Below are positions 1 through 21,341 of a stretch of 64,000 bases of DNA, piece by piece. Source of the DNA: Gluconobacter cerevisiae. Its GTDB lineage: Bacteria; Pseudomonadota; Alphaproteobacteria; Acetobacterales; Acetobacteraceae. How positions within the stretch are numbered: the stretch's first letter is position 1; each line of letters opens with the position of its first letter. The DNA lies in NCBI RefSeq assembly GCF_015244675.1, contig NZ_JABCQO010000008.1:1-64000 (forward strand), read 5' to 3'. The notes under the pieces are model-generated. The model was not told the DNA's origin. It ran no database searches and saw nothing but the letters and a program-made list of their open reading frames with translations. A program made the translations under genes and the position numbers.

Positions 1-29
1 TGGCGCTCAGACAACAAAAATACCTCACT

Positions 30-60
30 CACAGGCCTACCCTCCATCGGTAAGCCTGTG
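30..60. terminator. Stem-loop, possible terminator or attachment-region hairpin
   Basis: Arms CACAGGCCTACC (30-41) and GGTAAGCCTGTG (49-60) pair with one internal mismatch around a seven-base loop. No T-run follows on the plus strand, so a terminator role is uncertain. It lies just before the integrase relic and could equally belong to an integration region. Confidence 0.35.
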
Positions 61-120
61 AATCACAACCTCTCGCTCAGTTCAATAAATTAATAGGTCC
101 TGAGCCTAGAAGATGATGAT

Positions 121-950
121 ATGCACGGCTTGAGGCGGACGGGTGGCCAAGCATACTCTGCCCATTTGTCTATTCCGCGTGATCGCTGGGCTGATGCCGG
201 AAAGGCGTTTGGAACTAAGACAGGCATCAAGCAGGAAGTGGTCCGCTCTCTTGGAACCCGTGAAAAACAGGAAGCCATCAGAAGGCGCGACAAGGCCCTT
301 GCAGCGATGCGAGAGGACTTGACAGGCTGGATGGCTGAAGATCGACTGCTCAATGGGGCGTTTGAGGCCCGGCGGGAGATAGCGGCCACTTCAGACAGGA
401 CGGTGGTGACAGGCAGATGGGACCTACCGCCCCTAAACGCCGTCTGATCGAGGGTATGGACTACTTGGAGGATCGAGCGGAACGGCTTGAGAAGGCTGGA
501 TAAGGACTCTTCAGGCTATGTGAGGCAGTTCCGGGAAATCGCGCTTGGCGAAAGGACGCCTTTTGCTCTGGTGCTGGATAGATGGATGAAGGATCGGGAG
601 AGTTATGCGTCCCATTCCGTCATTTCTCTGGATCGGGCCACCCTCAACAACTTCGGACACTATCTGGCCGATGTGCAGGACGCCCCCTAAACCGCCTGAG
701 GACCCGATAGCCTTCTTGCGGGCACAGGTGATCGAGGATGTTCCTGATATGGTCCTTGGGGGCTTTGCTGAGTGGCTGATGAACAAGCAGCGTCTCAGCC
801 CCAAGATTGCCGGGAACCGCATCACGCCTCTCAAGGCCATGTGGATCTATGCAATCCAGAATCACATTCTGAAGGGCCCCCAACCCGTGGACGGGCGCTA
901 CTGCCGGGTTGAAAAGGAAAGCCGGAAAGAAGGGGGCTGAGCCCCGAGCC
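121..950 (+). pseudogene. Decayed phage-type tyrosine recombinase (integrase), N-terminal part only
   Basis: Three reading frames in succession spell one integrase-like protein. Frame 1 from 121 to about 425 has the N-terminal DNA-binding part. A shift near 425-430 leads into a stretch reading MDYLEDRAERLEKAG that ends in a stop at 501. Frame 1 resumes with GERTPFALVLDRWMKDRESY (ends 690), and frame 2 then carries a core-binding segment (FAEWLMNKQRLSPKIAGNRI) and a NPW-like tail near 900. The catalytic domain with the R-H-R-Y residues is absent. Integrases of this kind insert phages or islands next to tRNA genes, but no tRNA is visible here. I infer a dead remnant of an old integrated element, cut off by a deletion before the ROK regulator gene. 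Confidence 0.65.
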
Positions 951-979
951 TAGGTTCGGCTACACGAGGAAACATGTGT

Positions 980-2188
980 TCAGCGATGATCAAAAGGTCT
1001 CTCGTCGCTTGCCGCAAGGTGGCGGATATAGAGATGGCGAAAATCCGAACGCGTATTGACGAAAATGGGCAGGCTCATACCACCGATGACTGGTCCGTCC
1101 GCCAGTTCCACAACAGAAAAGCGCGGCAGATCACGCTCCCGTATAGCGCAGAGCGACGGCAGAAGTGGGTAGCTGCGTTCAACGAGCGCAGACAGAATTG
1201 TCTCTGGCAGCGCTCCTCCCAGCAATACCGTTTCAGGATCAAAAGCCGTTTCCATAATGGAGACGAGGTAGCGTAAAGTTGCAGCGGCATCTTCAAGCCA
1301 ATGCATCAGACGGGTATCACGGCGCCGATGCAATTCGGATAGAATTTCTGGAGTCAGTTCTTTGACGGGGACCTCCAGTTGCTGAGCGATGGCGTGAAGC
1401 GACAGCAGATCATCAATCACGCCTTTGCCACCAGGAGCAGGAAGCAGACCGAATTCACCAGCATTGCCGTGAACGCCTTTCATCGGCATTGCGTCAGCTA
1501 CGATGCCTGCTCCGGTACCATAACCAATATAGACAAGAACAAAATTACGCATCGAACCGCCAGATTGATGCAGAAGCGTGCCAACTGCCGCCGCAGTAGC
1601 GTCATTTTCCATTAACACTGGTATTTTGAGGCGATCTGCCAGATCAGTCACGGGGTCAAAACCACGCCACTTTTCCCAACCCGGCATACGCATCTCAACT
1701 TCGTATTTATCGGCATTGAGCGTCGGTAGCACGAGACCCAAACCCCAGAGGCCCTCCTGCTTAACTCCACTACCCGTCATTAACTGTCCGACCATCCCTA
1801 CGATAACCGACATGGTCGCAACTGGATCGCTTGTGTCACCAGACCAGTCGACCCGGGCTACGATGTTGAGCAAAAGATCTCCAAGAACTGCAGAAATCCG
1901 TCCACGATCCACATGTATGCCAATCGCATATCCAGCTTCCGGGTTAGGAGCGAGATATGTCTGCGGCTGCCCCCGTAAGCCGGTGGAACGTCCCGCTTCC
2001 CGAATCAATCCTTGGTCAAGCAGTTCACGGGTAATGCCCGAAATGGTCTGCGGCTTAAGACCGACGCGTTGTGCAATGTCAACACGACTTAGTGGGCCGT
2101 TCTGATGAAGTAACTCGAAAACAAGACGACGGTTATAGATACGTGAAAAAGCCTGCCCTGCCCCATCTGGCACATCATGCTCGCTCAT
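980..2188 (-). CDS. ROK-family transcriptional regulator (NagC/XylR type)
   Basis: A 402-residue protein with an N-terminal winged helix-turn-helix (about residues 15-70, containing SRVDIAQRVGLKPQTISGIT) followed by a full ROK sugar-kinase-like domain (IGIHVDRGRISAVLGD, ENDATAAAVGTL, GYGTGAGIVADAM). ROK regulators of this build bind a sugar or sugar phosphate and usually repress a sugar-uptake operon. The CxCGxxGC zinc motif of many ROK proteins is not seen. It is the last gene of a seven-gene minus-strand chain; its ATG overlaps the stop of the permease gene (ATGA at 2188-2185). It probably regulates that chain and perhaps the divergent receptor operon. The ligand cannot be read from sequence. 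Confidence 0.88.
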   Translation of the reverse strand: MSEHDVPDGAGQAFSRIYNRRLVFELLHQNGPLSRVDIAQRVGLKPQTISGITRELLDQGLIREAGRSTGLRGQPQTYLAPNPEAGYAIGIHVDRGRISAVLGDLLLNIVARVDWSGDTSDPVATMSVIVGMVGQLMTGSGVKQEGLWGLGLVLPTLNADKYEVEMRMPGWEKWRGFDPVTDLADRLKIPVLMENDATAAAVGTLLHQSGGSMRNFVLVYIGYGTGAGIVADAMPMKGVHGNAGEFGLLPAPGGKGVIDDLLSLHAIAQQLEVPVKELTPEILSELHRRRDTRLMHWLEDAAATLRYLVSIMETAFDPETVLLGGALPETILSALVERSYPLLPSLCAIRERDLPRFSVVELADGPVIGGMSLPIFVNTRSDFRHLYIRHLAASDERPFDHR

Positions 2189-3003
2189 TTGACTGCTCCT
2201 GCCGTTAATCCGGCCGCGATGCGATGTTGGAAGAGCAAAACAAGTAAAACAGGAGGCACAATTGCAAGGAGAGAGGCAGACATGATGATTCCGAAAGGGA
2301 GCTCGAAACGACTAGGAGCAGAAATAAGACCAATGCTTACTGGCAACGTCCGCGCAGAGTCGCTCAGGGTAAAAGTCAGCGCGAAAAGGAATTCATTCCA
2401 GCAATTCATAAAAATCAAAAGCCCCGTCGCGACAATGCCAGGCCAGATTAACGGCAAATGAATCATGATCAGGCGCCGCAGTAGCCCACATCCATCGAGA
2501 GATGCAGCGTCATCAAGGTCCCGCGGGATGTCACGGAAAAAGCCGGCAAGTAGCCAGATCGCAAAAGGTAGTGCAAAAAAAAGATCAGCAAAAATCAGGC
2601 TTTCAAGGCGATTATAGAGCCCAAGCCGGGAAATAAGAGTAAACAGACCCGACAGGAGCGCAATCTGGGGAAGCATTGAACAACCAAGGAGCGACGCAAG
2701 CACCAGACTATGACCACGAAAAGACATGCGCCCTAATGCATAAGCTCCAGGAAGTGCCAGAATAAGGGCAATCAGATCCACTGCACCAGCCGATATCAGT
2801 GAATTGGCCGCATCTCGCCACCATGTCGGGTCTGACAGTATCTGGCGATAATTATCAAAATCAGGCGTTGCCAGAAGCGCGGCGGAAAAAAGCTGTGGTC
2901 CACGCCGAAAGGACGTCACAAGCGCCCAATAAAGTGGAAACACTGTCTGCCCTAATGCTGCAGCAAGAGCTACCCAGCGCCAGGACAGCGAAATCGCACG
3001 CAT
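2185..3003 (-). CDS. ABC sugar transporter permease, MalG type
   Basis: A 272-residue inner-membrane permease with about six hydrophobic segments and a late EAA-type loop (DDAASLDGCGLLRRLIMIHL) that docks on the ATPase. It belongs to the binding-protein-dependent transport family (MalG/UgpE class). The start was set at 3003 because the ATG there overlaps the stop of the upstream permease (TGATG), a translational-coupling arrangement; an in-frame ATG at 3039 would lie inside that gene. It pairs with the MalF-type permease and the binding protein of the same operon. No ATPase gene is present in the chain, so a shared MsmK/UgpC-like ATPase from elsewhere is presumably used. Confidence 0.88.
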   Translation of the reverse strand: MRAISLSWRWVALAAALGQTVFPLYWALVTSFRRGPQLFSAALLATPDFDNYRQILSDPTWWRDAANSLISAGAVDLIALILALPGAYALGRMSFRGHSLVLASLLGCSMLPQIALLSGLFTLISRLGLYNRLESLIFADLFFALPFAIWLLAGFFRDIPRDLDDAASLDGCGLLRRLIMIHLPLIWPGIVATGLLIFMNCWNEFLFALTFTLSDSARTLPVSIGLISAPSRFELPFGIIMSASLLAIVPPVLLVLLFQHRIAAGLTAGAVK

Positions 3004-3905
3004 CAGAAGGGCTCTCTGCGCTGCGGCAGGGTAATGCACCGCCAGAACAGGACCACGGTAAGGGTTATGACGCCGAGGGTCGCCAATGCAGCCGCAGCGC
3101 CGTAACCCGGTGCTCCAAGCTGTACGATCTGCGTATGAATGAAAACGGATAAAGTCATGCCGTTCATGTCTACACCGTAAAGGACGCTCGAAAGATCAAA
3201 CATTCTCAGCGCATCAAGCAAACGAAACAGAGCAGCAACTGTCAGCATTGGCCAGATCAGCGGCATGGTGACGTAACGGAAGCACTGCCAGTGCGTCGCG
3301 CCATCCATAAGGGCTGCTTCCAGCGCATCCGTTGGTACGGTTTGAAGCCCGGCGAGAGCGAGCAACGTCATGAAGGGTGTTGCCTGCCATATATCGACCA
3401 CGATCATCGTAGCGAGCATACCATTTGGTCCAGCGGTCCACGCCACACCATGTTTGATCAATCCGCTCTCAAGTAATACGGCATTGATAACGCCGTACTG
3501 CTCGTTGAGCATCCAGCTCCATAACCGTGCCGCCACCACGCCAGGAACCGCCCATGGCAGCAGCATAACTGCCAGCACAATCCCCCGGATAACGGTGTTC
3601 AACTTCTGAAGGATGACTGCAAAGCCGACGCCAAGAACGGTTTCTACGACTACCGATCCCAGCGCAAAAATAACTGTCGTGCGGACTGATCGCCACCAAC
3701 TGGAATCTCCCATCATGATCCAGAAATTCTCCAGTGTCGCTCCGGTCTGAGCGGGAACGAAACCGTGCGGATCATGGCTGAAAGCCAGATGTAACGTCTG
3801 GATGAACGGCACAAGAACGAGCGCCATAAGCGTCAGCAGTGAGGGCGCCAGTAATACCCATGGTTGCCAAACAAACATTCTGTGTTGCAGAATTTTACGT
3901 GACAT
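3003..3905 (-). CDS. ABC sugar transporter permease, MalF type
   Basis: A 300-residue inner-membrane permease with about six membrane segments and the EAA loop EAALMDGATHWQCFRYVTMP near residue 200. MalF/UgpA-class proteins form the channel heterodimer with a MalG-class partner, which here is the next gene. The start overlaps the ROK kinase gene by 11 bases and the stop overlaps the next start by one base. In context it imports the oligosaccharide or glycoside freed by the exported GH76 enzyme; the true substrate is inferred only. Confidence 0.88.
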   Translation of the reverse strand: MSRKILQHRMFVWQPWVLLAPSLLTLMALVLVPFIQTLHLAFSHDPHGFVPAQTGATLENFWIMMGDSSWWRSVRTTVIFALGSVVVETVLGVGFAVILQKLNTVIRGIVLAVMLLPWAVPGVVAARLWSWMLNEQYGVINAVLLESGLIKHGVAWTAGPNGMLATMIVVDIWQATPFMTLLALAGLQTVPTDALEAALMDGATHWQCFRYVTMPLIWPMLTVAALFRLLDALRMFDLSSVLYGVDMNGMTLSVFIHTQIVQLGAPGYGAAAALATLGVITLTVVLFWRCITLPQRREPF

Positions 3906-4842
3906 CCAGTGCCTGTCGCGCCGCCCACGCCGTTAAGGCTGCTCCAATAATCCCTGCCTCTTCCCCCAACCCCGCCACAAGTAGTGGAATATCAGAACAG
4001 GACTGCTCCCAGATGTGCGAGCGTATCTGTGTTTCCAGCTTTGTGCGGTAAACACCTGTCGAACAGCCAAGGCCACCCCCAAGAATGATCTTCTCGGGAT
4101 CGAGCATGTTCACAACCTGGGCAATCAGACGCCCTCCCATTCCGGCGCCATCCGCAATGACACGTAGTGCCATAGGATCCTCCAGTGCCGCCAGTTCCTC
4201 TAAGCTGTGTACCCCATGCAGCAATGGTTCGCCCCCACGCTCTTCCCACAGGCGCGCCATGCCAATTCCCGAAGCATAATCCTCAGGAATTGCGGATGCG
4301 AGTTCTGAACGGTCCCTCACCGGCACAGCCATTTCAGAACTGGCAAAATGAATCGCAAAACCATGCGCTCCTGCGTAAGGACGTCCCTCAAGGCATAGCG
4401 TGTAGCTCATCCCCGAACCAAGGGAGAAATAAGCGAAATTGCTACACCCTCGCCCGGCACCAAATCGGGCTTCGGCAAAAGCTGCCGCGCGGACATCACT
4501 CTCTGCCCGAACCGGAGCTCCCGTTATGCTCGACAAACGCTCGATGAGGCCTGGCAGAGGAAAGTTCCAGGCACTCCGGATTTCGCCGTACAGATCCACC
4601 AGTTCGGGAACAGCTACGCCGATCGCGGCCGTTGCCCCGTTATGGATACCATCAGGCGGCAGAATAGAATCCAACAGCATGGCAATGTCATCTACAATCC
4701 CCTCGCCCGGTGCATTGCGACGGGTCTGAATGCGGCAGACAGGCCCAAGAGTGCCGGTTTCCATGTTGACCCATGCTGCCGCGATCTTGGTCGCTCCAAC
4801 ATCAATCCCAATGGCATAGGAAGAAGATGCCCGCGTTGTCAC
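3895..4842 (-). CDS. ROK-family sugar kinase-like protein
   Basis: A 315-residue protein with the ROK/actin-fold phosphate-binding start IGIDVGATKIAAAWV (about residues 11-25) and the adenosine-site segment EKIILGGGLG near residue 255. It has no DNA-binding domain, so it is a kinase rather than a repressor. The zinc-binding CxCGxxGC motif is missing and the usual GHAGEIGH segment is replaced by GAHGFAIHFA, which makes it an atypical member. It overlaps the TIM-barrel gene by 4 bases (ATGA). In the operon it probably phosphorylates the imported sugar. It could be inactive or have an unusual substrate, because the residues normally positioning the sugar hydroxyls differ. Confidence 0.8.
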   Translation of the reverse strand: MTTRASSSYAIGIDVGATKIAAAWVNMETGTLGPVCRIQTRRNAPGEGIVDDIAMLLDSILPPDGIHNGATAAIGVAVPELVDLYGEIRSAWNFPLPGLIERLSSITGAPVRAESDVRAAAFAEARFGAGRGCSNFAYFSLGSGMSYTLCLEGRPYAGAHGFAIHFASSEMAVPVRDRSELASAIPEDYASGIGMARLWEERGGEPLLHGVHSLEELAALEDPMALRVIADGAGMGGRLIAQVVNMLDPEKIILGGGLGCSTGVYRTKLETQIRSHIWEQSCSDIPLLVAGLGEEAGIIGAALTAWAARQALDVT

Positions 4843-5711
4843 AGGCCAAGTCGCCGTAGAACGTCACGATTATGTCGAGCAATGGGTAATGGCTTTTCCG
4901 GCACACAGGGATACATGTCCTGCTCCACCACAGCAAAACCATCAAAGCGTCGACCTTTAAGAAAAGCTACGACGTCTGCAAAGTCCATGACTCCCTTGTC
5001 CAGTTCGCACATGACACCATTCTGAAAGACGTCCATGAAAGGTGTCTGCTCCGCCATGGCTCTCGCATGTATGGCGGCATCCATATTTTTAAAATGATAA
5101 TACGGGATACGGTCGGCATGAGCACGCATGAAGGCCAAAGCATCCCCGCCTGCATAAGCATGATGGCCAAAATCATAACAGAGTTCGACCAGGTCAGCAG
5201 GAGTATCGGCTAACAAGTGCAGAATTTCCTCTTCGCTCTCCACCGCCGTGCCCACATGCGGGTGAAACAGAAGCCGCAACCCATATTCCTGCGAAATAAT
5301 GCGTCCGGCCTCGGTAATCACACCCATCATGTGACGCCATGTTTCCGGAGAGGCAACGCGAGCCTGTCGGGAAGAATAGACGTCCGAGTCATCCATAAGC
5401 AGAAACCACGGCGTATTGGTCGCAACCAGTGTCTCACATAGTGGCTTAATCCGAGCTCGCAGCGTCTGCCAGGCATCCTGCTTCGCAAGTGGATGCACGA
5501 CAGCCGCACCACACAGCCCAAGATTGCGGGACGCAAGCGCATCCGTCAGTCGGCTGCGATCCGTGGGGAGATATCCCCATGGTCCCAGTTCAGTCCACTC
5601 ATAGCCAGCCTGCGCCACCTCATCGAGATACCGCTCCCAAGGCGTCTGGCGAGAGTCCTCAGCATACCACACCCCCCAGGCATCCGGGGCCGTTCCAATA
5701 CGAATGGTCAT
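4839..5711 (-). CDS. Xylose-isomerase-like TIM-barrel protein (IolE/inosose dehydratase-like)
   Basis: A 290-residue TIM-barrel protein of the AP-endonuclease-2/sugar isomerase superfamily. Opening segment IGTAPDAWGVWYAEDSRQT; metal-ligand segments are LLFHPHVGTAVE, ELCYDFGHHAYAGGD, YYHFKNMD and FAVVEQD (the usual Glu-Asp-His-Glu set). Its opening and the TELGPWGYLPTD segment resemble inosose dehydratase/IolE- or IolI-like enzymes of inositol catabolism, although sugar-epimerase roles are also known. It is cytoplasmic and overlaps the genes on both sides by 4 bases. With the PI-PLC/phosphatase and the Gfo/Idh dehydrogenase across the promoter region, a step on inositol or a keto-sugar is the best guess. 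Confidence 0.78.
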   Translation of the reverse strand: MTIRIGTAPDAWGVWYAEDSRQTPWERYLDEVAQAGYEWTELGPWGYLPTDRSRLTDALASRNLGLCGAAVVHPLAKQDAWQTLRARIKPLCETLVATNTPWFLLMDDSDVYSSRQARVASPETWRHMMGVITEAGRIISQEYGLRLLFHPHVGTAVESEEEILHLLADTPADLVELCYDFGHHAYAGGDALAFMRAHADRIPYYHFKNMDAAIHARAMAEQTPFMDVFQNGVMCELDKGVMDFADVVAFLKGRRFDGFAVVEQDMYPCVPEKPLPIARHNRDVLRRLGL

Positions 5712-7000
5712 TGTGTTTTCTCCTCAAGAACATCCTCACCTGCCCGGCTTTCAGACCAACGGCCGCGACGGGCCATAAACTCGAAAATTTCTGAAAGCCG
5801 GCGCAAGCTGCCGGCAGCATCCTGCTGTCCACTCAGCGTTTGGTGAAAACTGTTGGCCGCCAGCCACGCCACGCGTGGATAATCCGTTCCGGTCTGAGCC
5901 ACAGGACGCAGGACGGGACGCGCAAGCGCAGTCCTGATTGTGCTGAGAACCGGCAACGCCGTGAGCACAGCGGGATCGTTGAGGAGTGCGCGACGCGCAG
6001 GGATATAAGCCCCCCTAACAACACGCTCGCGCTCAACCTCTGGCGATGTCAAATAGCGCATCAGCGAAAGAGCTTCTTCGGGATGAGGACTATTCCGGGC
6101 CATGCCAAGATAGACAGTCCCGTCAACACCACGCGGTGGGTCGGATGCCTTCTCACGCGGCAGAGCTGCAACGCCGACCTTTCCGGCAATCACACTCTGC
6201 GGGTCATTGGCCAGAGCCCAGGCATAGACCCAGTTCCGCATAAATACCGCATGGCCAGACTGGAAAGCCCCACGGGCAGCTTCTTCATCATCGGAGAGAA
6301 CGCCAGAGGGTGAAATCGTACCAATCCATCCCGCGGCACGCTTCATAGCCGCACGAGCCACTCCGTTATCCAGAGTAATCTGCCCATCTCCTGAAACGAT
6401 GGTTCCACCTTCAGGACCAAACCATTCCAACACGTTGCATACGAGACTTTCTGCCGTACGTCCCTGCCAGACATACCCCCACAATGCGCTGTCTCCACGG
6501 GCACGCTCCGCTTTTTGGATCGCATTTGCCTCGGCACCCAGTTCGTCCCAGCTCTGCGGCACAGGAAATCGGTACTTCTCCAACAGGTCCCGTCGATAGA
6601 ACAGAAGTCCGACATCGCGATACCAGGGTAACGCAACGTCATGGCCCGAACTGACGAACGGGCCAGGCGTCAGGTCATCATCAGCCGCAGCGCGGGGAAT
6701 AATTCCCAGCCTTGGTGCCAGTGTGCCCAGCCATGTTCCGTCCATAACCAGAACATCAACCATAGGCGACTGCGCGGAAAGTAGCTGTCGATATAGCGGC
6801 AGGATCGCACCCCAGTCAGACGGTAGCGGGACAAGCGTCACGGTATTGCCGGTCATGTGTGCCCAAGCCTGTGTCTCGGAGGCACAAAGAGCCATTTCTG
6901 CGCCATTCGACGAGCAAAATACCGTAAGATTTTTAGCACGGACGCCAGAAGACAAAATCAGCGCGCATCCTGCCAGAAACACTGATAACCGTCTTTTCAT
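5708..7000 (-). CDS. ABC transporter sugar-binding protein (family 1)
   Basis: A 430-residue periplasmic solute-binding protein. The signal peptide is MKRRLSVFLAGCALILSSGVRA, followed by a MalE-like fold (LTVFCSSNGAEMALC, WGAILPLYRQLLSAQSPMVDV, late LSLMRYLTSPEVERE). Such proteins hand oligosaccharides to the MalF/MalG-type permeases, which are two genes downstream. The start overlaps the stop of the GH76 gene by 4 bases. The operon order (hydrolase, binding protein, isomerase-like, kinase, permeases, regulator) fits capture of a product of the hydrolase. Confidence 0.88.
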   Translation of the reverse strand: MKRRLSVFLAGCALILSSGVRAKNLTVFCSSNGAEMALCASETQAWAHMTGNTVTLVPLPSDWGAILPLYRQLLSAQSPMVDVLVMDGTWLGTLAPRLGIIPRAAADDDLTPGPFVSSGHDVALPWYRDVGLLFYRRDLLEKYRFPVPQSWDELGAEANAIQKAERARGDSALWGYVWQGRTAESLVCNVLEWFGPEGGTIVSGDGQITLDNGVARAAMKRAAGWIGTISPSGVLSDDEEAARGAFQSGHAVFMRNWVYAWALANDPQSVIAGKVGVAALPREKASDPPRGVDGTVYLGMARNSPHPEEALSLMRYLTSPEVERERVVRGAYIPARRALLNDPAVLTALPVLSTIRTALARPVLRPVAQTGTDYPRVAWLAANSFHQTLSGQQDAAGSLRRLSEIFEFMARRGRWSESRAGEDVLEEKTQ

Positions 7001-8097
7001 CGCGCGACCTCCCCGGACACACGGGCAGCCGCTACGAACAGACTGGCCGCGGTCAATTGGGCCTGTGCCGAGGGAGTAAAAGGCGTAGCGCTCCAGTCGC
7101 TATCGAACTGCGCATCCGGAAACCTGTTAGCCCATAGACGCATACTTTCGTCGGTGAGCCATGTCTTTAAAGCTTCCTGATCTCCGCCAGCAGGCAATGC
7201 CGGCACAAGACGGCCTAAAGCCTGCACGAAAATACCGCGGAAAATTCGGCTATCGATATTCATCACTCCCGTAGCCTCGCGAAAGCCTCCATCGAGCATG
7301 GTACGTTCACCAATAGCCTGCCGAGCGATATGGGCAGCCTGTAGCAGAAAATAAGGATCCCCTGTCAGCACCGTCAAATTCCGCAAGGCGTCAAGAATGA
7401 CTCCTTGATTATAGCTATAGGTGGGCGAGCCATTATTAAGACACCGCGCATCAAGACCGTCATTGATTGCATGAGATGTCAGGATCATGCCGCTACCCTC
7501 GAACCATCGCCAACTTTTCAATGCCCACTCTTTATAAGAAGCATCCCCGGTCATAACGGACAGACGTGCGGCAACATCTATGAAAAGTTCGTTGGTAATC
7601 GCGTTTTTATAGGTGTGCGCATGATCCCACCATACACCACCACCGCAGGCTCCGTCCCAGGCATGCACAGTGAGCCTGCTGAAAATACGGGCCGCATTTT
7701 TTAGAGCATTGCGTTGCCGCTCCCGATTCCCATCCTGAACGGCCCAATCCAGTTCTGCTTCTGCGAGCCAGAGATCATCATCATTGCCGTCCAACCCCCG
7801 ATGATCTGCCAGCAACTCACCGGCAAGTGCGTGAAAGTGCGAATCACCCGAGGCGGCTTCATAGTCCATCAATGTCCCAACAGACACGAAACGCTGCCAG
7901 GCATGAAACGCGTCCCCGTCATGATGAGTGTGCAGCTCACGAGCGTAGTGCGCAGACAAAATATCCAGCGCCATTCTGGCCTGCTGCAGAGGGGGCGCTC
8001 TCGAAAAATCCACTGTCTTAGCAAGGCAGGAACCCGACCAGAAAATCCACGCAACCATGCCAAAAATTCCCGGCGCCTTTCGAAGAATGCCCGACAT
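6997..8097 (-). CDS. Exported glycoside hydrolase family 76 (alpha-1,6-mannanase)
   Basis: A 366-residue protein with an N-terminal export signal (hydrophobic GIFGMVAWIFWSGSCLA, residues 10-26). GH76 marks are the acidic cluster NDDDLW (residues 105-110), which corresponds to the paired catalytic aspartates of bacterial endo-alpha-1,6-mannanases, the segment CGGGVWWDHAHTYKNAITNE (151-170) and YSYNQGVILDAL (227-238). Known family members cut the alpha-1,6-mannan backbone of yeast cell walls or mycobacterial phosphatidylinositol mannosides. It heads the seven-gene operon, about 450 bases from the divergent TonB-receptor gene. An action on yeast mannan or mannosyl-inositol lipids is inference from the family and from the neighbouring PI-PLC/phytase protein. 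Confidence 0.86.
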   Translation of the reverse strand: MSGILRKAPGIFGMVAWIFWSGSCLAKTVDFSRAPPLQQARMALDILSAHYARELHTHHDGDAFHAWQRFVSVGTLMDYEAASGDSHFHALAGELLADHRGLDGNDDDLWLAEAELDWAVQDGNRERQRNALKNAARIFSRLTVHAWDGACGGGVWWDHAHTYKNAITNELFIDVAARLSVMTGDASYKEWALKSWRWFEGSGMILTSHAINDGLDARCLNNGSPTYSYNQGVILDALRNLTVLTGDPYFLLQAAHIARQAIGERTMLDGGFREATGVMNIDSRIFRGIFVQALGRLVPALPAGGDQEALKTWLTDESMRLWANRFPDAQFDSDWSATPFTPSAQAQLTAASLFVAAARVSGEVAR

Positions 8098-8551
8098 CTC
8101 CGCCCTCTTTCGTTACGCGACACCGAAAAACAATGAGAGCCTGGAATGCCCTTAAAAGCCTACAGGTCATATTAAATACATAACTCGTATTTATATCCAA
8201 ATGTTTTTGTAATTTTGTTACAAAATAGTGCTGGTCGATATTTAACACAGGCTTCACACAAATTTTCTCAGAAACATATTAAGCCCACTCGGACAGCGGA
8301 TTTCCATGTTTATAGAGGGTTCCAGAAGGACGAATCGACAGAACGAAGGGGGCCGTATGTTTCTCCGTTGCATGTTCGAAAGAGAAAAACTTAGATCAAA
8401 ACATTTGTTTTATAGGCCAAACTCAGAAGCCATAGAGGACAATTCCTCATGTTTTTGATCGCCGAATTTTTCGCCCCTGCCATTGGCAACACCCAATAGG
8501 TCCACGTGCGCAGTGCGTGGTTCGTCTCTTTCCTTCAAGAGGGTCCGTTCG
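8098..8551. promoter_or_regulatory. Divergent promoter region with a TTTTGTAA/TTACAAAA dyad
   Basis: About 450 bases separate the GH76 operon from the divergent TonB-receptor operon and hold no convincing gene. An inverted repeat TTTTGTAA (8205-8212) and TTACAAAA (8218-8225), separated by five bases, lies in an AT-rich stretch about 110 bases upstream of the GH76 start. It is a plausible operator, for instance for the ROK regulator of the operon. The rest shows nothing I can name. Confidence 0.4.
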
Positions 8552-11410
8552 ATGATATCGTTTAAAAAAGCTCTGACGAGATATCTGATCCCGCTGACGA
8601 CAGTCGGCGTTATTGCGCCTGCACTGGCGCAGCCAACCTCCCACAAGGTCAGAACTCACAGCAAGAAACAAGAATCGCGTGCCATCAATCTGGCTCGGGG
8701 CAAAACGCCGACAGCGCCGGTGTCAAAACCATCGTCTATCCCGCCGCGTCCGCAGATTTTTGCTTCCGCCAGCAAGGCCGAAAGCATCAATGTTACGGGA
8801 ACGCGTGGCGGGAGCGTTGCAGCAGCCCTTGACGAGCAGCGCCACAGCGTAGGGGTGGCAAGCGTCATGTCGCGTGAGCAACTCGAACAGGCCCCAGAGA
8901 CAAACCTCTCAGATATTCTGACACGTCTTCCCGGCGTCTCGGCCTATAGCGACATGGGAGGCGCCCAGGCTGCAACAGGAGAGTCTCAGTACATGACCAT
9001 TCGTGGTCTTGACTCAAGCTACAACGCGTACACCCTGAACGGGGAACGCATCGCTCCAGCCGACCCGTCCACACGCGCCGTATCATTCGATATGCTTGCC
9101 CCGTATGGCATCACATCAATTAAAGTATCCAAAAGCACCACGGCCGATATGGATGGCGATGCAATCGGCGGCGCAATCGATATCAGAACCCCCACTGCTT
9201 TCGATTTTTCTGGCCCGTATCAGAAAATTACTCTGCAAGGCCAGTTAAACGACAAGGCGGCACAGATTGGTACGCAGGATCTTGGAGGCACCGCGCAGGT
9301 AGAATTCGCCCGTCGCTTTGGAAAAGATAATCGCTTTGGTATTTACGCCACGGGCTATTATTCTTCCAAAGGGGTACTGGCAGACGCCGTTGCACCGAAT
9401 ACCTCCTATTCTCCAACGCTTCTGTCACAGTCAGGGGTGACAAGCCTGAACCAGGCATCGCAGCTCTCGACACAGCAATTGAAGTACGATCTCTTCTCCA
9501 GTTCCATCAAACGGTATGGTGGCTCTCTTTCGCTCAACTACAAGGGCGATAATCAAGAGTTCTATGCCTTGGGAACTTATGGTCAGTACAATGTCAAAAT
9601 GGACGATAACCAGATTTCATTGCGCGGCGCAGATTCCGGTTATAATGCCAGCGGAATTTATCAATCCGCAAATGCAACCCGGGGCCAGTATTTTGAAACT
9701 GACGACTCAGCCCAGTTGTTAACAACACAGAAAATTGGAGGAATTACTCGCGCCCAGAACTGGACCATCAACTACGACGTGTTCAACAGCTATGGCGTAC
9801 AATCAAGCCCGAACCAGGTCGAGGCAAGCATGTATGGTAACACAACTGTCAATGGCCCTTTCAATTTTGATGTCGCCAACACAACGTTGCCCCGCGCAGT
9901 TGCGTCTTCTGGCGCCCTCGCAGAACTCTACAATCAGAACACCAATAAATTTTGGAAAACACAGGGGCGTGACTCCCAGAGTACGGCGGACATGTTCGGT
10001 ATTCACGCTGACGCCGCCTATCATTTCCATTTGGATATCCTGAAATCCATCGTCTTCGGCTTTAAAATCAGCGATACCCAACGCCAGTCCTGGCGTCACC
10101 CATATTTTCATGACGATAATAATTTCGTTTATGATGGTCCCTTTTTCGGCGGCGAGAGCTGGGCCTACAATAATGCAGCCGGTCCTATGGTCGGCAATAT
10201 TCCTGGAAAAAATGTCAATGCCTTCGGAGGCGCAGCCGGTGATTTCCGCCTGTTGGACCGGGACTGGGTCAAGAACACGACCGTCCCCCATAAATATCAA
10301 AATGACCCCAACGGCGCGGGTAATTACACAAAAAACGATTGGAATGCGAATACCAGTCGTGGATCTGAACGCGTTTACGCGGCCTTTGTTGAACTCAATC
10401 TTCAGGCCGGTCCTGTCGATATCCACCCAGGGTTTCGATATGAATATACAGATTTCAGCGGATCACATTGGAAATCCAATGGCGATGATGCGACCGGAGA
10501 GTTCATCAATATCAAGCAATCCTACGGTACACCGCTTCCATACCTCAACATCAATTATCGCCCGACAGACCTCAGCGTCCTGCGATTTTCCGTACGTCGC
10601 GCCCTTACACGCCCCGCCTTCGGCCTGATCAACGGCGCAACATCGTTAACGCTTGACTCATTGACCAACCGGGTCATTTCCGTATCCCAACCCAACCCAA
10701 ATCTACGTCCGACTACCGCTACGGTCTTTGATTTCTCAGGAGAGCTTTACAATCATCATTCCGGAGTTGTTTCCGCTTCCATTTATTATAAGCAGATCCA
10801 GAAATTTGTTTTTACATCTGTTTCAGGCACGACAAACAGCACGACGCTTGGCGGTAACGTGCCAACCAATGCCTATACCAATAATGGCACCGAATATCAG
10901 ATGCCTATGAACGGTGGTAGCGCGACATTGGAAGGCATCGAACTGAACGCTCAGCAAACACTCTATTTCCTGCCAGACTGGCTGAGTGGCTTCGGTGTTA
11001 ATGCAAATATTACACTCCAGCATTCAAATGCCCAGAGTAATATTTCCGGACACCCGAACACGGCACTCCCGCGCGCACCGGAAATGATGTATAATCTCGG
11101 GGTATTCTATAATTACGGTCCGATGCACTTCGATCTTAACTACAATTACATTGGAACGCAGCTTCTTAGTGTCAATTCGTCTCTTCCTGATTTCTATCTG
11201 CAACCGACACAGCGTCTTGATCTCAGCATGAAATACAAGTTCGGCTGGGGGCTGACAGGAACACTGGCGATGCAGAACCTTTTGAATACGCCTGCTTATT
11301 GGGAGACAATGGGTAAAGGTAAGTCCTATCTTGCCTATGATGGTTCAGCTAACGGCGCATTCGTCCAGACTGGGCGCACATATCTCGTAGGATTAACCGG
11401 ACAGTTTTGA
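8552..11410 (+). CDS. TonB-dependent receptor, carbohydrate type (Xanthomonas/Caulobacter class)
   Basis: A 952-residue outer-membrane receptor. The start at 8552 (ISFKKALTRYLIPLTTVGVI follows the initiating Met) gives a proper signal peptide ending PALAQ; an upstream in-frame ATG at 8483 would bury it. The plug domain follows (NLSDILTRLPGVSAYS, then TIRGLDSSYNAYTLNGERI and DAIGGAIDIRTP), then a beta-barrel ending in the aromatic-terminated strand YLVGLTGQF. The barrel resembles the large receptors that import oligosaccharides in Caulobacter and Xanthomonas. The stop overlaps the ATG of the PI-PLC/phosphatase gene (TGATG at 11408-11412), so the two are translationally coupled. It probably brings the released glycan or inositol phosphate into the periplasm. 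Confidence 0.9.
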   Translation: MISFKKALTRYLIPLTTVGVIAPALAQPTSHKVRTHSKKQESRAINLARGKTPTAPVSKPSSIPPRPQIFASASKAESINVTGTRGGSVAAALDEQRHSVGVASVMSREQLEQAPETNLSDILTRLPGVSAYSDMGGAQAATGESQYMTIRGLDSSYNAYTLNGERIAPADPSTRAVSFDMLAPYGITSIKVSKSTTADMDGDAIGGAIDIRTPTAFDFSGPYQKITLQGQLNDKAAQIGTQDLGGTAQVEFARRFGKDNRFGIYATGYYSSKGVLADAVAPNTSYSPTLLSQSGVTSLNQASQLSTQQLKYDLFSSSIKRYGGSLSLNYKGDNQEFYALGTYGQYNVKMDDNQISLRGADSGYNASGIYQSANATRGQYFETDDSAQLLTTQKIGGITRAQNWTINYDVFNSYGVQSSPNQVEASMYGNTTVNGPFNFDVANTTLPRAVASSGALAELYNQNTNKFWKTQGRDSQSTADMFGIHADAAYHFHLDILKSIVFGFKISDTQRQSWRHPYFHDDNNFVYDGPFFGGESWAYNNAAGPMVGNIPGKNVNAFGGAAGDFRLLDRDWVKNTTVPHKYQNDPNGAGNYTKNDWNANTSRGSERVYAAFVELNLQAGPVDIHPGFRYEYTDFSGSHWKSNGDDATGEFINIKQSYGTPLPYLNINYRPTDLSVLRFSVRRALTRPAFGLINGATSLTLDSLTNRVISVSQPNPNLRPTTATVFDFSGELYNHHSGVVSASIYYKQIQKFVFTSVSGTTNSTTLGGNVPTNAYTNNGTEYQMPMNGGSATLEGIELNAQQTLYFLPDWLSGFGVNANITLQHSNAQSNISGHPNTALPRAPEMMYNLGVFYNYGPMHFDLNYNYIGTQLLSVNSSLPDFYLQPTQRLDLSMKYKFGWGLTGTLAMQNLLNTPAYWETMGKGKSYLAYDGSANGAFVQTGRTYLVGLTGQF

Positions 11411-13704
11411 TGACGATGTATAAAACGTACCGTTTCTATTGGGGAGTGGCCTTATTGGTCGCTCCTCTTCTTGCAACGATCGGCACGGCAAAAGCTGATA
11501 ACCCGCTTGATCCCAATAACCTGCGACTGGACCAGTTGCAGGTTATTGGATCCCACAACAGCTATCATTCCGGCGTAGAGCCAGGTATTCTTTCAAGAAT
11601 ACAACAGATCTCTCCTGCCCTCGCAAAACTACTTGACTATAAACATCCGGCTCTTTCGACACAACTTGATCAAGGCATCCGTCAGGTCGAACTCGATATT
11701 TACGCTGATAATCACGGCGGCCGGTTTTCAAACCCGCACAATCCTTACGCTCCGACAGAAAAATGGCCTCTTCCGCCGGCAGAAGCAGCGCTCATGCGTC
11801 AGCCCGGCTTCAAGGTCATGCATATCCCTGACATAGACCAGCACGCCAACTGCCAGCCGCTTAAGGCCTGCCTTGAGAACATTCGCAACTGGTCTGACGC
11901 GCATCCTCATCATATTCCGGTCTTCGTTATTCTTGAAATAGAACAATCCAACGATCTGCCTGGGGCGACACCTGTCGAACTCTTCAATGCCAGAACATTC
12001 AATGATCTCGACGCAACGATCCGGTCCATTTTTTCAATACACAACCTTCTGACCCCGGACGACGTGCGTGGAAATGCCACCACGCTTTCGGAAGCCGTAC
12101 AGGCACACGGGTGGCCAACTTTAGCCCAAAGCCGCGGAAAAGTTATTTTTCTTCTGGATCAACGCAGCAATGGGCCACTTTATCTGGAAGGTCATAAAGG
12201 TCTGCGCGGTCGCGTTGCGTTCACCAATGCAGACCCTTCCGCACCTGACGCGGCATTTACCGAACTCAACGATGGTCCTGTTTCCCAGATCACGAAACTG
12301 GTCCGGAAACATCTTCTTGTGCGGACAAGAGCAGACGTAAACACTGCTGAAGCGCGCGAGGGAGATCCCGCCCGACCGAATGCCATGCTGGCGAGCGGCG
12401 CACAAATTATCAGCACAGATTATCCGAATAGCGAACCAGCACGCTGGAGTGGATACAGGGTCGGCTTTCCAGCCGGTGGGTCTGTGCGCTGTAATCCAGT
12501 CACATCTCCTACGGGCTGTGTTTCACGCCTCATAGATGCAGCGGACGCACAAAAACTGTATTTGCGCCGCGTCGTTATGGTTATGCGTCACGGCATACGC
12601 TCGGCGTTGCCGGGTCAGGAGCCTGCGACGGCAACTGTTAATGGTGGTTGGCCAAAATGGGAAGTTGCTCCCGGAGACCTGACGCCCCACGGCGCTACAG
12701 GCATGCGCGCTCTGGGACAATTTGAACGTCAGTGGCTTAGCGAAAATGGTCTCATTTCAAACGCTGGATGTCCCTCCTCTGAAAAAATCGCAATGCGATC
12801 CAATTCGGAGCGGCGAACCATAGCCAGCGCCCAGGCATTCGCGAACGGCTTTGCACCAACCTGTTCCATCACCATCGCGCATCAACCAGAAGGGACGGCA
12901 GATCCCCTTTTCTCTCCTCTTGAAGCGGACCCCGCGCGTTTCGATATGCGGACGATCATCTCCCAGTTGCCTGACGCAAACGAGATGTTCGCGCCCCACA
13001 AGGACATGTTGAACGCACTTTCAAACATTGTCCGGTGCACTACCGGTTCCTGCGATTTCCTCACAGCACCAAGTCACATAGAAGCGGACAGCACCAATCA
13101 TGAATTGACACTCTCCGGCCCGATCCGCGACGCCTCATCCATCGCTGAAGCCCTGATGCTGGCCTATCTGGATGGGAAGCCAGAAATAAGCAGCTTCAGC
13201 GGAAAACGCATCGACGCCACGACACTGGGGCCACTCTCTGCATTGCATGCAGCGATGCTGAAGACCATCGTACGCCCTCCTGCAATCGGTGAGCCCTTGT
13301 CTCGTAACCTGAGACAGCGCATCATCACGGACTTGACTGAAAAAAACGGTCCTGATTATCGCCTGTATGTCGGGCATGATGACACTATAGCCCCCTTACT
13401 GGGCCTATTGGATGCGCATATACAAGCACCAGGCTATGCAGCAGATGAAATCCCGGTCGGGTCTGCTTTAGGCTTTGCCCTGTACGATAACGACGTCGGC
13501 GCAACCTTCGTCCGCGTATTTTTCCAGTCCCAGACACCGCAAGATCTCCGAACGACACCTGAAACCGCGTGGCCTTCGCTCAGCTTTCCATCAATACCAA
13601 TCTGCAAAGCTGACACGCATCTCTGCACGATCGACGAACTACTGTTTGCCCTAAAAAGTACTCAGTCACGGAAGCAGTCTCTCTCAGACACAGGACAGAA
13701 ATAA
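11410..13704 (+). CDS. Exported PI-PLC domain / histidine acid phosphatase (phytase-like) fusion
   Basis: A 764-residue exported protein with two catalytic domains. After the signal peptide (hydrophobic GVALLVAPLLATIGTAKA), residues about 40-375 resemble the calcium-dependent phosphatidylinositol phospholipase C X-domain: VIGSHNSYH with His49, RQVELDIYAD (91-100) and VMHIPDIDQH with His138. Residues about 385-760 are a histidine acid phosphatase domain with the nucleophile motif MRHGIR (392-397) and the proton-donor pair in YVGHDDTIAP (His656-Asp657). That second family includes phytases and glucose-1-phosphatases. Together the protein could release inositol phosphates from a glycolipid and dephosphorylate them. 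It sits between the TonB receptor and a Gfo/Idh dehydrogenase. The fusion order is unusual to me. A TTG three bases upstream could also be read as a start. Confidence 0.85.
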   Translation: MTMYKTYRFYWGVALLVAPLLATIGTAKADNPLDPNNLRLDQLQVIGSHNSYHSGVEPGILSRIQQISPALAKLLDYKHPALSTQLDQGIRQVELDIYADNHGGRFSNPHNPYAPTEKWPLPPAEAALMRQPGFKVMHIPDIDQHANCQPLKACLENIRNWSDAHPHHIPVFVILEIEQSNDLPGATPVELFNARTFNDLDATIRSIFSIHNLLTPDDVRGNATTLSEAVQAHGWPTLAQSRGKVIFLLDQRSNGPLYLEGHKGLRGRVAFTNADPSAPDAAFTELNDGPVSQITKLVRKHLLVRTRADVNTAEAREGDPARPNAMLASGAQIISTDYPNSEPARWSGYRVGFPAGGSVRCNPVTSPTGCVSRLIDAADAQKLYLRRVVMVMRHGIRSALPGQEPATATVNGGWPKWEVAPGDLTPHGATGMRALGQFERQWLSENGLISNAGCPSSEKIAMRSNSERRTIASAQAFANGFAPTCSITIAHQPEGTADPLFSPLEADPARFDMRTIISQLPDANEMFAPHKDMLNALSNIVRCTTGSCDFLTAPSHIEADSTNHELTLSGPIRDASSIAEALMLAYLDGKPEISSFSGKRIDATTLGPLSALHAAMLKTIVRPPAIGEPLSRNLRQRIITDLTEKNGPDYRLYVGHDDTIAPLLGLLDAHIQAPGYAADEIPVGSALGFALYDNDVGATFVRVFFQSQTPQDLRTTPETAWPSLSFPSIPICKADTHLCTIDELLFALKSTQSRKQSLSDTGQK

Positions 13705-13706
13705 TC

Positions 13707-14792
13707 ATGAAAAAAATCTCTCTTGGCCTGATTGGTGCAGGCGAAGTCGCCCAACTCATTCATCTGCCAATTCTGAAACAATTACAGGATCATTATGCGG
13801 TCACAGCATTGTATGATCCCTCTCCTTCTGTTCTGGAGCAGGTCGGAAGCAACTGGAATATCCCTCATCGTTACACGACACTCGATGACCTCCTGTCTGA
13901 CCCGACCATTGATGCCATCATGGTTCTGAGTCCGGACCAGTTCCATGGGGACCACGCCCGATCTGCTCTGCGGGCCCAAAAGCATGTCTTTCTTGAGAAG
14001 CCTGCTTGCCTGACCCTTACGGATCTCAAATCTCTGATTGAAGTAGAACGAGAGAGCAATCAGGTGACGATGGTTGGCTACATGCGCTGTTATGCACCTG
14101 CTTTCACACAGGCTCAGTCCCTTCTGAAACACATGGGAGAGACACGCTACGTCCGCGTCCGGGATCTGATCTGCGAAGGACCATGGTTTTTTAACAGCTG
14201 GGGCCATGTTGCCACACCGGATGGCGACATAGCAGTTGACCTGATCGATTCAGGCCGCGCTAAACGCCTTGCGGACATGAAAGCTGTCTGTGGAGAAGAC
14301 GCGTCCCCCGCGATCCTGAAAGCTTATGAAGTTCTGACCGGTTTGGGCATCCATTCTCTTTCAGCCCTCCGCGTATTGATAGGCTCGCCACAAAAGGTTA
14401 TCTCAGCCCATATCGCGCAGGGTGGAACACAGATCAACGCACTTCTGGACTATGGACAGTTCATAACGAGTTATGAATGCCTGATTGACGACGTCGTTCG
14501 GTTCGACGCTACAATTGAAGTCATTTCCGCCCGCGAAAAACTCGATATCTATTACGATACCCCGTATATCCGTAACCTCCCAGGACGTACGGTATTTCAG
14601 ACGAGCACGGAGACAGATAATACCGTTCAGAATTTCGGTCCTTTCTACAAGGATCCATTCCGTGTCGAACTCGAACATTTCCATGATGCTATCGTCGCAG
14701 GCACGCCCGTTTCCACCCCTCTTCAGGACGCGTGGGCTGATCTCGATTTGTGTCAACAGATCATGACAGCGGCTCGAATAAGCACAAAGTAA
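13707..14792 (+). CDS. Gfo/Idh/MocA-family oxidoreductase
   Basis: A 361-residue NAD(P)-dependent dehydrogenase. The N-terminal Rossmann fold has GLIGAGEVAQLIHLPIL, and the family signature LEKPACLT near residue 95 supplies the conserved lysine. The C-terminal half is the alpha/beta substrate domain. Relatives oxidise inositols, sugars and sugar acids, so inositol 2-dehydrogenase-type chemistry is possible but unproven. It starts two bases after the stop of the PI-PLC/phosphatase gene and is the last gene of the receptor operon. With the IolE-like protein of the divergent operon it could make the first two steps of inositol breakdown. No signal peptide is seen, so it acts in the cytoplasm. 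Confidence 0.85.
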   Translation: MKKISLGLIGAGEVAQLIHLPILKQLQDHYAVTALYDPSPSVLEQVGSNWNIPHRYTTLDDLLSDPTIDAIMVLSPDQFHGDHARSALRAQKHVFLEKPACLTLTDLKSLIEVERESNQVTMVGYMRCYAPAFTQAQSLLKHMGETRYVRVRDLICEGPWFFNSWGHVATPDGDIAVDLIDSGRAKRLADMKAVCGEDASPAILKAYEVLTGLGIHSLSALRVLIGSPQKVISAHIAQGGTQINALLDYGQFITSYECLIDDVVRFDATIEVISAREKLDIYYDTPYIRNLPGRTVFQTSTETDNTVQNFGPFYKDPFRVELEHFHDAIVAGTPVSTPLQDAWADLDLCQQIMTAARISTK

Positions 14793-19032: not shown

Positions 19033-19242
19033 TTACCTGAATATGCTCGGACGCTGTGCATTGAGCGTGGTGTTGAAATTGATGAATCCGGGCGTAGTCA
19101 CGAACCCTATTGCATCGATTCCTTGCTTTGCCTCACCGGAAACGGCCCCGACATTCTGGACGATGCCATCCCGCACCACCGGGCTGCTGGAGACATGTCT
19201 CAGGGTAAACGAACAGCCTGTGTGGATCACAAGATCAAACAA
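19033..19242 (-). pseudogene. N-terminal fragment of an N-acyl-D-amino-acid deacylase-like amidohydrolase
   Basis: The 69-residue frame opens FDLVIHTGCSFTLRHVSSSP, continues VVRDGIVQNVGAVSGEAKQG and ends IDAIGFVTTPGFINFNTTLNAQ-like before running out. This is the composite beta-sandwich plus first barrel strand of D-aminoacylases, whose metal motif would be PGFIDxHTHxD; here the two histidines and the aspartate are replaced (NFNTTLN). The remaining 400 or so residues are absent. It lies 32 bases after the M20 peptidase gene on the same strand, so it was probably the last gene of that operon before a deletion. Confidence 0.5.
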
Positions 19243-19274
19243 ATGCCTACCCTTTCACGATATGCGTACTGCTC

Positions 19275-20729: not shown

Positions 20730-20807
20730 GCTTTGCTCCTGTTGATTGCCTGAAAATTCAAAGCCGAAACTACGAGCCAACGTCGTCCGGCAATCGCGCC
20801 AGACACA

Positions 20808-21341
20808 TCATTTCGTGGGAATTTTTTTATCTTTTGCGTCGCTTCTGGATGCAATCACGTCCACCTCGACAAGCCAGTGAGGATTGCCCAGATGCGGAAC
20901 CTCGATGACGGTCCGTGCAGGAAAAGCGCTTCGGAACTGAGTCCGATAGGCCTGCATCATGCCGTCGAAATCCATATGTCCCAGCCGTGGATCAGCGACC
21001 AGATAGATATGCATCTGCACGATATCCTGAAGCGTCATCCCGTAATGTTTCAGTGCCGCCGAGATCTGATCCAATGCACTTCGCGTCTGCTCAGCGGTTG
21101 TTGTGCCAGATATCCTGTCCGTCGCAGGGCCCAACCCTGAGACATAAACCGTTCTTGATCCAGCCGAGACCTGAACGGCTGTCGAAATCGGAAAATCATC
21201 TTTTGGATCAGAATAACGCTGAACGGACTGCGCAGACGCGCCTTGCATGCCCGCAGAGACCCCGACAACAAGCATACCGAGTTGACACCATCGGCGCCAG
21301 TTGCATTCGGACATGTCAGCAGGAAGAGGTGCGGGAGACAT
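20808..21341 (-). CDS. Exported RidA (YjgF/UK114)-family protein
   Basis: A 177-residue protein with a hydrophobic export signal (QLGMLVVGVSAGMQGASAQ) and a RidA domain: VYVSGLGPATDR, QTRSALDQISAALKHYGMTL and the arginine-containing signature FPARTVIEVPHL. Cytoplasmic RidA hydrolyses enamines and imines; periplasmic relatives commonly sit in amino-acid-scavenging operons. The start at 21341 has GAAGGAG about nine bases upstream and overlaps the permease gene by 26 bases; an ATG at 21314, one base after the permease stop, is an alternative without a ribosome-binding site. The M20 gene follows after 78 bases. Confidence 0.82.
   Translation of the reverse strand: MSPAPLPADMSECNWRRWCQLGMLVVGVSAGMQGASAQSVQRYSDPKDDFPISTAVQVSAGSRTVYVSGLGPATDRISGTTTAEQTRSALDQISAALKHYGMTLQDIVQMHIYLVADPRLGHMDFDGMMQAYRTQFRSAFPARTVIEVPHLGNPHWLVEVDVIASRSDAKDKKIPTK

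Follow-up and report, generated by a model that had tools for sequence, protein, structure and literature searches.

To our knowledge, the utilization of fungal α-mannan has been described mainly from Bacteroidota. Mannan loci of these bacteria possess a TonB-type receptor and a local regulator. Those of Salegentibacter sp. Hel_I_6 and Bacteroides thetaiotaomicron, as far as the accessible part of their description goes, combine an endo-mannanase of glycoside hydrolase family 76 (GH76) with GH92 exo-mannosidases (PMC9213526). A second kind of related system is represented by the levoglucosan (LgdA/B1/B2/C) and 3-keto-O-glycoside (Agrobacterium GlycDH/OGE/HYD) pathways, in which, according to excerpts of the two reports, a dehydrogenase is accompanied by an eliminating protein annotated as a sugar phosphate isomerase/epimerase (PMC7676230, PMC10628242). 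In this study, we analyzed a stretch of 64,000 nucleotides (hereafter, the window) of the acetic acid bacterium Gluconobacter cerevisiae (assembly GCF_015244675.1), which is the start of the 146.8-kb contig NZ_JABCQO010000008.1 in a 3.0-Mb genome of 40 contigs. A ten-gene locus at positions 980–14,792 codes for a GH76 protein along with a Gfo/Idh/MocA-family dehydrogenase (Gfo) and an IolE-like protein. We propose, with a probability of about 0.6, that the whole locus is explained as a foraging system for α-mannan, i.e., for mannosides of fungal or yeast cell walls. It may be a variation on the fungal mannan utilization loci, with an unusual enzyme pair that cleaves the imported fragments by oxidation and not by water. 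Our statements on substrate and chemistry are all drawn from sequences and structural models. Acetic acid bacteria and yeasts occur together in vinegar, kombucha, fruit, and insect guts, and the conserved locus would suggest that the former can feed on the walls of the latter, a testable link between these partners.

Like the Bacteroidota loci, the window locus possesses a GH76 gene, a TonB-type receptor, and a regulator of its own, and the combination of GH76, GH92, and a TonB-type receptor is present at the level of the genome. In contrast to the Bacteroidota loci, GH92 is encoded elsewhere in the genome, outside the locus, and neither GH125 nor GH38 occurs in four of the five GH76-carrying genomes described below. 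There is also no SusD among the ten window proteins, and hence no SusC/SusD pair, while an ATP-binding cassette (ABC) importer, a fusion of phosphatidylinositol-specific phospholipase C (PI-PLC) with a phosphatase (PLC–phosphatase), and the Gfo/IolE-like pair are added.

The GH76 endo-α-mannanase family protein (6997–8097, minus strand; PF03663, 122.9 bits against a cut-off of 25.9) has a signal-like N-terminus, as read by eye. Its profile matched the solved relatives CtGH76 of Chaetomium thermophilum (130 bits), Lin0763 (96 bits), the Salegentibacter enzyme (77 bits), and CtDfg5 (71 bits). CtGH76, the best of these, belongs to the GH76 subfamily in which Fungi and Bacteria are mixed, the comparison being one of solved matches. 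The catalytic pair D106/D107 is kept in all eight aligned sequences as well as in loci L088, L090, and L091, and was aligned by eye with D163/D164 of CtGH76. Equivalents of W111, D268, Y217, and Y289 of CtGH76 are also kept (by eye), whereas the window protein is bacterial, shorter, and deviates at two aromatic positions considered below. CtGH76 binds glycan fragments of the glycosylphosphatidylinositol (GPI) core and α-1,6-mannobiose, according to the available part of its description (PMC12295086), and because of this binding, the substrate of the window locus may include a GPI or mannosyl-inositol. Elsewhere in the window genome, a second GH76 match (C1:260443, 25 bits) covers part of the model.

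To place the GH76 gene in its genomic context, we surveyed 249 genomes of Acetobacteraceae. GH76 was found in five of them, and GH92 in 15, namely in 5/5 GH76 carriers and 10/244 others; one carrier (G037, Acidomonas) was counted by a 56-position fragment. The association gave a Fisher p value of 4e-7, or 3e-5 without the fragment (here and below, genomes were treated as independent, and kinship was uncorrected). GH92 genes are also found in runs with locus-type genes. On a contig of Novacetimonas hansenii, permeases, regulator, ATPase, and GH92 form one run; in genome G174, a TonB receptor, PLC–phosphatase, and GH92 do so; and on another contig of the window genome (L117; G000 C1:172001–192000), a TonB receptor is followed by two GH92 genes, this receptor giving no BLAST match to that of the window locus at 1e-5. 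Among the five GH76 carriers, GH38 was present in none and GH125 in one, so that four carriers are without either of these enzymes for α-1,6-mannobiose. A ManA-type mannose-6-phosphate isomerase was likewise found in 0/5 carriers, and an AlgA-type isomerase in 5/5. We consider an α-mannoside to be quite a likely substrate.

The initial annotation had named a lack of co-occurrence of the two operons in relatives as one possible refutation of its proposal, and co-occurrence was found. An IolE-like orthologue (at least 76% identity, window included) is present in the same five genomes as GH76, with some match in 100 of the 249. The PLC–phosphatase fusion was matched along both domains in seven genomes, four of which carry GH76 (Fisher p value of 1e-6). 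In addition, named genomes were scanned with the IolE-like protein by means of two peptide patterns, which favors close relatives, and 30 loci were obtained: nine from acetic acid bacteria and 21 from others (Hyphomicrobiales by name, or metagenome-assembled genomes). The gene order of the window is identical in Acidomonas, Gluconacetobacter sacchari, and Brytella, and six more records show close variants. The genes for GH76, the binding protein, the IolE-like protein, the ROK kinase, and Gfo are present in all nine acetic acid bacterial loci, GH76 being interrupted by an in-frame stop in L088. A TonB receptor is also present in all nine, of the window type (85–87% identity) in five and of a different type (27–29%) in four, and PLC–phosphatase shares the locus with GH76 in eight of the nine. 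The transcriptional regulator of the ROK family (980–2188, minus strand; winged helix-turn-helix and ROK domains; PF00480, 84 bits, and HTH_24) is 66–89% identical and in the same place in 8/9 loci. The permease of MalG type (2185–3039; 69–83% identical) and that of MalF type (3003–3905; both minus strand, PF00528) are found in 8/9 as well; the ninth contig, from N. hansenii, stops early and apparently continues on another contig. The arrangement is more than chance, and its recurrence in the nine further records from acetic acid bacteria marks it as a real unit.

The two divergent gene sets described in the initial annotation were also confirmed in the window itself. An examination of open reading frames (ORFs) gave ten intact, uninterrupted ORFs at the same coordinates, and Pfam scores were over the cut-off for each of the ten gene labels. 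With NCBIfam, only the TonB receptor (8552–11,410, plus strand; TIGR01782 subfamily, 528 bits against 310) was over the cut-off, and the binding protein and GH76 had no listed match. The minus-strand set runs outward from the divergent region in the order GH76, solute-binding protein, IolE-like protein, ROK kinase, two permeases, and ROK regulator, with overlaps of 4, 4, 4, 11, 37, and 4 bp when counted on the longest ORFs. On the plus strand, the receptor gene overlaps that of PLC–phosphatase by 4 bp, and the Gfo gene follows after a 2-bp gap. Overlaps and gaps as tight as these are typical of operons.

PLC–phosphatase (11,407–13,704, plus strand) is a fusion of a Ca2+-dependent PI-PLC (PF16670, 398.7 bits) and a branch-2 histidine acid phosphatase (PF00328, 87.6 bits) and is predicted to be secreted from a signal seen by eye. 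It has a full-length PI-PLC-C1 domain and matches two solved PI-PLCs at 42 and 39 bits, and the RHG and HD motifs of the phosphatase domain align with those of the solved phytases 3zhc and 4arv, as expected of a phytase/histidine acid phosphatase. The locus might consist of two neighbors, a phosphate-scavenging module of TonB receptor and PLC–phosphatase that acts on phytate or phosphoinositides, and an independent mannoside module beside it. Each part does occur without the other: L042 and L043 have the receptor and PLC–phosphatase without the GH76 core, and Novacetimonas maltaceti has the GH76 core without PLC–phosphatase. L047, L049, and L053, from three genomes of the same genus as the window, pair a related TonB receptor (65–66%) with a phosphatase that has no PLC domain. 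However, PLC–phosphatase remains in the GH76 locus in the eight records noted above even where the receptor is of the other type (L088, L090, and L091), another genome has it in a common run with GH92, and the window Gfo gene is downstream of it. We thus regard separate modules as doubtful, though with a chance that deserves consideration. In L047, L049, and L053, PLC is encoded by a separate gene on another contig.

The IolE-like protein (4839–5711, minus strand; PF01261, xylose-isomerase fold) belongs to the fold and family of IolE, and Gfo (13,707–14,792, plus strand; PF01408), a candidate sugar dehydrogenase, belongs to the family of IolG. Unlike the enzymes of inositol catabolism, however, both score below the equivalog cut-offs: 147.9 bits against 290 for IolE (TIGR04379) and 99.5 bits against 355 for IolG (TIGR04380). 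IolD was over its cut-off in one GH76 carrier (G079) and not in the other four, window genome included, with weaker matches in all. The model of the IolE-like protein (predicted local distance difference test score, pLDDT, of 93) matched IolE 3cny with a template modeling (TM) score of 0.85 and Brucella IolE with 0.86–0.87, followed by Art22 (0.78) and AsbF (0.72), and, lower, by the 3-keto-glucal hydratase AtHYD and YcjR (about 0.7). A profile search likewise gave 147 bits for IolE and 38 for AtHYD. The Gfo model (pLDDT 91) matched many Gfo/Idh enzymes about equally and hence points to no substrate.

These data bear on the proposal of the initial annotation that one substrate composed of mannose, phosphate, and inositol, such as a GPI or mannosyl-inositol lipid, is fully dismantled, with Gfo and the IolE-like protein starting inositol catabolism in the manner of IolG and IolE. 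Such a role would fit the adjacency of the genes for PI-PLC, the inositol-phosphatase-like domain, the IolE-like protein, and Gfo, the presence of PLC–phosphatase in eight of the nine other GH76 loci, the nearness of the fold to IolE, and the presence of IolD in G079. Inositol dehydrogenases have the motif D-x3-H-x2-D, which we matched by eye to G212 (24/24 sequences), H216 (24/24), and S219 (23/24) of Gfo, i.e., to Gly and Ser where the motif has Asp; this counts weakly against an inositol dehydrogenase, as the alignment does not bring the two stretches together. The binding of GPI-core fragments by CtGH76, in the part of the report available (PMC12295086), is also in keeping with a substrate of this kind. 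On the other hand, IolD is over the cut-off in only one of the five carriers, both proteins are far below the equivalog cut-offs, and the core outside acetic acid bacteria is without PLC or phosphatase within the stretches examined. The mannose part of the proposal gains support, with GH92 tracking GH76 and GH38 present in homologous loci, while its inositol-ring part is not supported, given the IolD result, the low IolE and IolG scores, and the loci in which the core lacks PLC and phosphatase. Full dismantling with entry into inositol catabolism is accordingly judged highly improbable. Ordinary inositol catabolism by the pair appears unlikely since no IolD is over the cut-off in 4/5 carriers, and we rejected this role on that ground.

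What the pair may do instead is suggested by its catalytic residues. H150, H152, D180, H206, and E263 of the IolE-like protein are kept in 28/28 aligned sequences. The 3-keto-glycoside eliminase AtOGE has the set His 132, His 134, Asp 163, His 189, and Glu 233, as given in the accessible text (PMC10628242); the window set has the same order, near-same spacing for the first four residues, and 13 residues more before Glu. The locus also has the pairing of eliminase pathways, a Gfo dehydrogenase with a partner of xylose-isomerase fold. It differs from the levoglucosan and 3-keto-O-glycoside systems in having one enzyme per type, in the link to a mannanase and an importer, and in a sequence nearer IolE. 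IolE itself eliminates a group β to a ketone. Because AtOGE and IolE share this chemistry, elimination is our best guess for the IolE-like protein, which we regard as a candidate β-eliminase or dehydratase of an oxidized sugar. Alternatively, the pair could epimerize or otherwise reshape a keto-sugar without cleavage, as is the case for YcjS/YcjQ and YcjR of Escherichia coli; the ycj cluster that encodes them, from the part of its description available, has the same kind of set, namely an ABC importer, sugar dehydrogenases, and the epimerase/isomerase YcjR (PMC11543891). The YcjR structure 6wn6 is a fold match (TM score about 0.68), but the sequence match is marginal (E 0.066) and the dehydratase IolE is much closer; reshaping without cleavage thus seems improbable.

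Outside acetic acid bacteria, the Hyphomicrobiales loci resemble the window locus in having an IolE-like protein (55–59% identical), Gfo, a ROK protein, and an ABC importer, and differ in having GH38, NagB-like, or PfkB genes in place of GH76; they gave no TonB receptor or PLC–phosphatase match within the stretches examined. On plasmid pAtS4e of Allorhizobium ampelinum, for example, Gfo, IolE-like, ROK, and ABC importer genes, the last with an ATPase, lie beside a GH38 α-mannosidase gene (GH38N, 258 bits). GH38 is present in 11 of the 21 core loci, which come from Hyphomicrobiales and metagenome-assembled genomes, and Gfo in 18. A PfkB-type kinase gene lies near the Gfo or binding-protein gene in 5/21. 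In another 5/21 (Rhizobium tropici group), a NagB-like gene lies between the IolE-like and kinase genes, and neither GH38 nor NagB-like genes were seen in 5/21 within the stretch examined. From these neighborhoods, the core is tied to α-mannosidic enzymes in two bacterial orders, not in every locus. The NagB-like protein (L093:10899–11714 in the homologous operon of R. tropici, with counterparts in four relatives) may indicate an amino-sugar variant of the substrate. In the GH38 loci L108, L110, and L111, the ATPase and IolE-like genes are separated by a GH2 gene, and Gfo was not seen within the stretch examined.

Under the mannan hypothesis, mannan fragments would be admitted by the TonB receptor. 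In the periplasm, GH76 would cut bonds of α-1,6-mannose (or of the GPI core) once GH92 enzymes encoded elsewhere in the genome have trimmed the side chains. PLC–phosphatase would strip phosphoinositol or phosphate attachments and supply phosphate, and short α-mannosides would be taken in by the ABC importer, which is probably served by a shared ATPase. Gfo would then oxidize a hydroxyl of the imported mannoside in the cytoplasm, and the IolE-like protein would split the product by β-elimination. The ROK kinase would make mannose-6-phosphate, to be converted to fructose-6-phosphate by the AlgA-type isomerase that each of the five carriers possesses. The eliminative step by the Gfo/IolE-like pair is put forward tentatively, as a possibility on the doubtful side; it would account for the absence of both GH38 and GH125 from four of the five carriers. 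Since these two usual hydrolase families are missing, an oxidized α-mannoside is our preferred substrate for the IolE-like protein, an oxidized glycosyl-inositol being the bolder choice. A loss of IolE type, i.e., of a group β to a ketone, would release a sugar at O6 of 2-keto-inositol. In the corresponding non-hydrolytic route, the headgroup that PLC, phosphatase, and GH76 release (e.g., mannosyl-inositol or mannobiose) would be imported whole, Gfo would oxidize a hydroxyl of the ring, and the attached sugar would then be expelled through β-elimination by the IolE-like protein. This route would fit the exchange of partners among loci, namely, for mannose, just a kinase in acetic acid bacteria; for glucosamine, a kinase with a NagB-like deaminase in the R. 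tropici group; and GH38 in the Agrobacterium vitis group; we nevertheless give it very little weight. If true, oxidation–elimination on α-mannosides would add a mannose branch to a recently found alternative to glycoside hydrolases.

Several observations weigh against mannan foraging with eliminative cleavage. With regard to GH76, no α-1,6-mannanase activity of CtGH76 was seen by thin-layer chromatography, as stated in the accessible part of the report (PMC12295086), and the window protein has residues other than Trp at the equivalents of its canyon aromatics W110 and W287 (by eye). One GH76 carrier, Gluconobacter oxydans NBRC 14819, has a GH76 gene (L088:7603–8691) broken by an in-frame stop (position 318 of 363), while the gene of its close relative L090 is intact, and GH76 occurs in 0/4 other genomes of the window's genus within the 249-genome sample. 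With regard to the IolE-like protein, IolE shows the same His pattern in the alignment, and both fold and sequence are nearer to IolE than to any 3-keto-glycoside enzyme among the matches. AtOGE is absent among the 18 sequence matches and the 50 listed fold matches, so the likeness to it is one of residue order. The locus contains neither the hydratase nor the second dehydrogenase that the levoglucosan pathway employs; in a whole-genome search with the IolE-like query, in which no hydratase-specific model was run, the window gene was the sole match. Finally, no GH38 was seen in 10/21 core loci outside acetic acid bacteria within the stretch examined, five of these having NagB-like genes, and the core substrate may not be mannose everywhere.

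The periplasmic sugar-binding protein (5708–7000, minus strand; PF01547), predicted to be of the α-disaccharide type, matched best among solved structures 6jb0 (241 bits), which we take to be a binder of α-glucosides, followed by MalE3 (6dtq) and a trehalose/maltose-binding protein. The predicted ROK-family sugar kinase (3895–4842, minus strand; PF00480, 119 bits) is closest to solved ROK glucokinases (55–59 bits), and its substrate is probably the released mannose. The window locus has no ABC ATPase gene. In four of the nine relatives (Acidomonas, G. sacchari, N. maltaceti, and Acetobacter senegalensis), such a gene directly follows the ROK regulator gene, and in N. hansenii it follows the regulator on the second contig, whereas no such ATPase was found in the three Gluconobacter loci and Brytella within the stretch examined at E 1e-20. 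Where relatives have the ATPase, window positions 1–980 hold the contig start with an integrase-like N-terminal fragment (DUF6538, 23 bits, below the cut-off); DUF6538 is presumably tied to the N-terminus of phage-type integrases. A search for a dedicated ATPase was unsuccessful: the genome gave a single OB_MalK match, which is encoded in a different ABC operon together with an FGGY kinase and a short-chain dehydrogenase. The matching protein is 63% identical to the Acidomonas ATPase, which makes it plausible that the importer shares an ATPase encoded elsewhere in the genome.

The divergent region common to both operons (8098–8551) lies between the GH76 and TonB receptor starts. The latter is probably ATG at 8552 and not TTG at 8483, because a signal-peptide-like start is seen by eye at M24; about 450 bp would then separate the two operons. 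No convincing promoter or conserved operator was detected in this region, with two promoter-like sites against 0.9 in shuffles and two terminator-like sites against 1.0. As a common regulator site, the 9-mer TGATTTATT, present in 6/10 upstream regions, was considered and discounted because the regions are AT-rich and partly from close relatives. The region also holds an AT-rich inverted repeat, TTTTGTAA-5-TTACAAAA, and a similar one is present in the Acidomonas region (TTTTCGTAACGAAAA); no repeat of this kind was among the top-scoring rows of the same scan in the remaining upstream regions.

A search of the open-access literature found nothing on GH76 in acetic acid bacteria or on Gluconobacter together with mannanase and yeast cell wall. 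Among the papers listed by a looser open-access search, judged from titles and the starts of abstracts, none seemed to deal with such a locus either; one, on lichen metagenomes, mentions Acetobacter frequently and mannan once. A search of plasmids for GH76 gave seven records, all below 60% identity; in the one inspected, from Novosphingobium, there was no match to the other locus genes. The window locus is 74% identical to that of Acidomonas over 13.9 kb and 65–71% to Gluconobacter loci, while positions 19.1–22.9 kb of the window match two Gluconobacter records at 82%; this pattern suggests lateral exchange within the family. The 82%-identical stretch (19,082–22,890) is a cassette that encodes an M20 peptidase, a RidA-type protein, and a permease of the cytosine/purine type, and its copy also adjoins a different GH76 locus in G. 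oxydans and Gluconobacter sp. P1C6_b.

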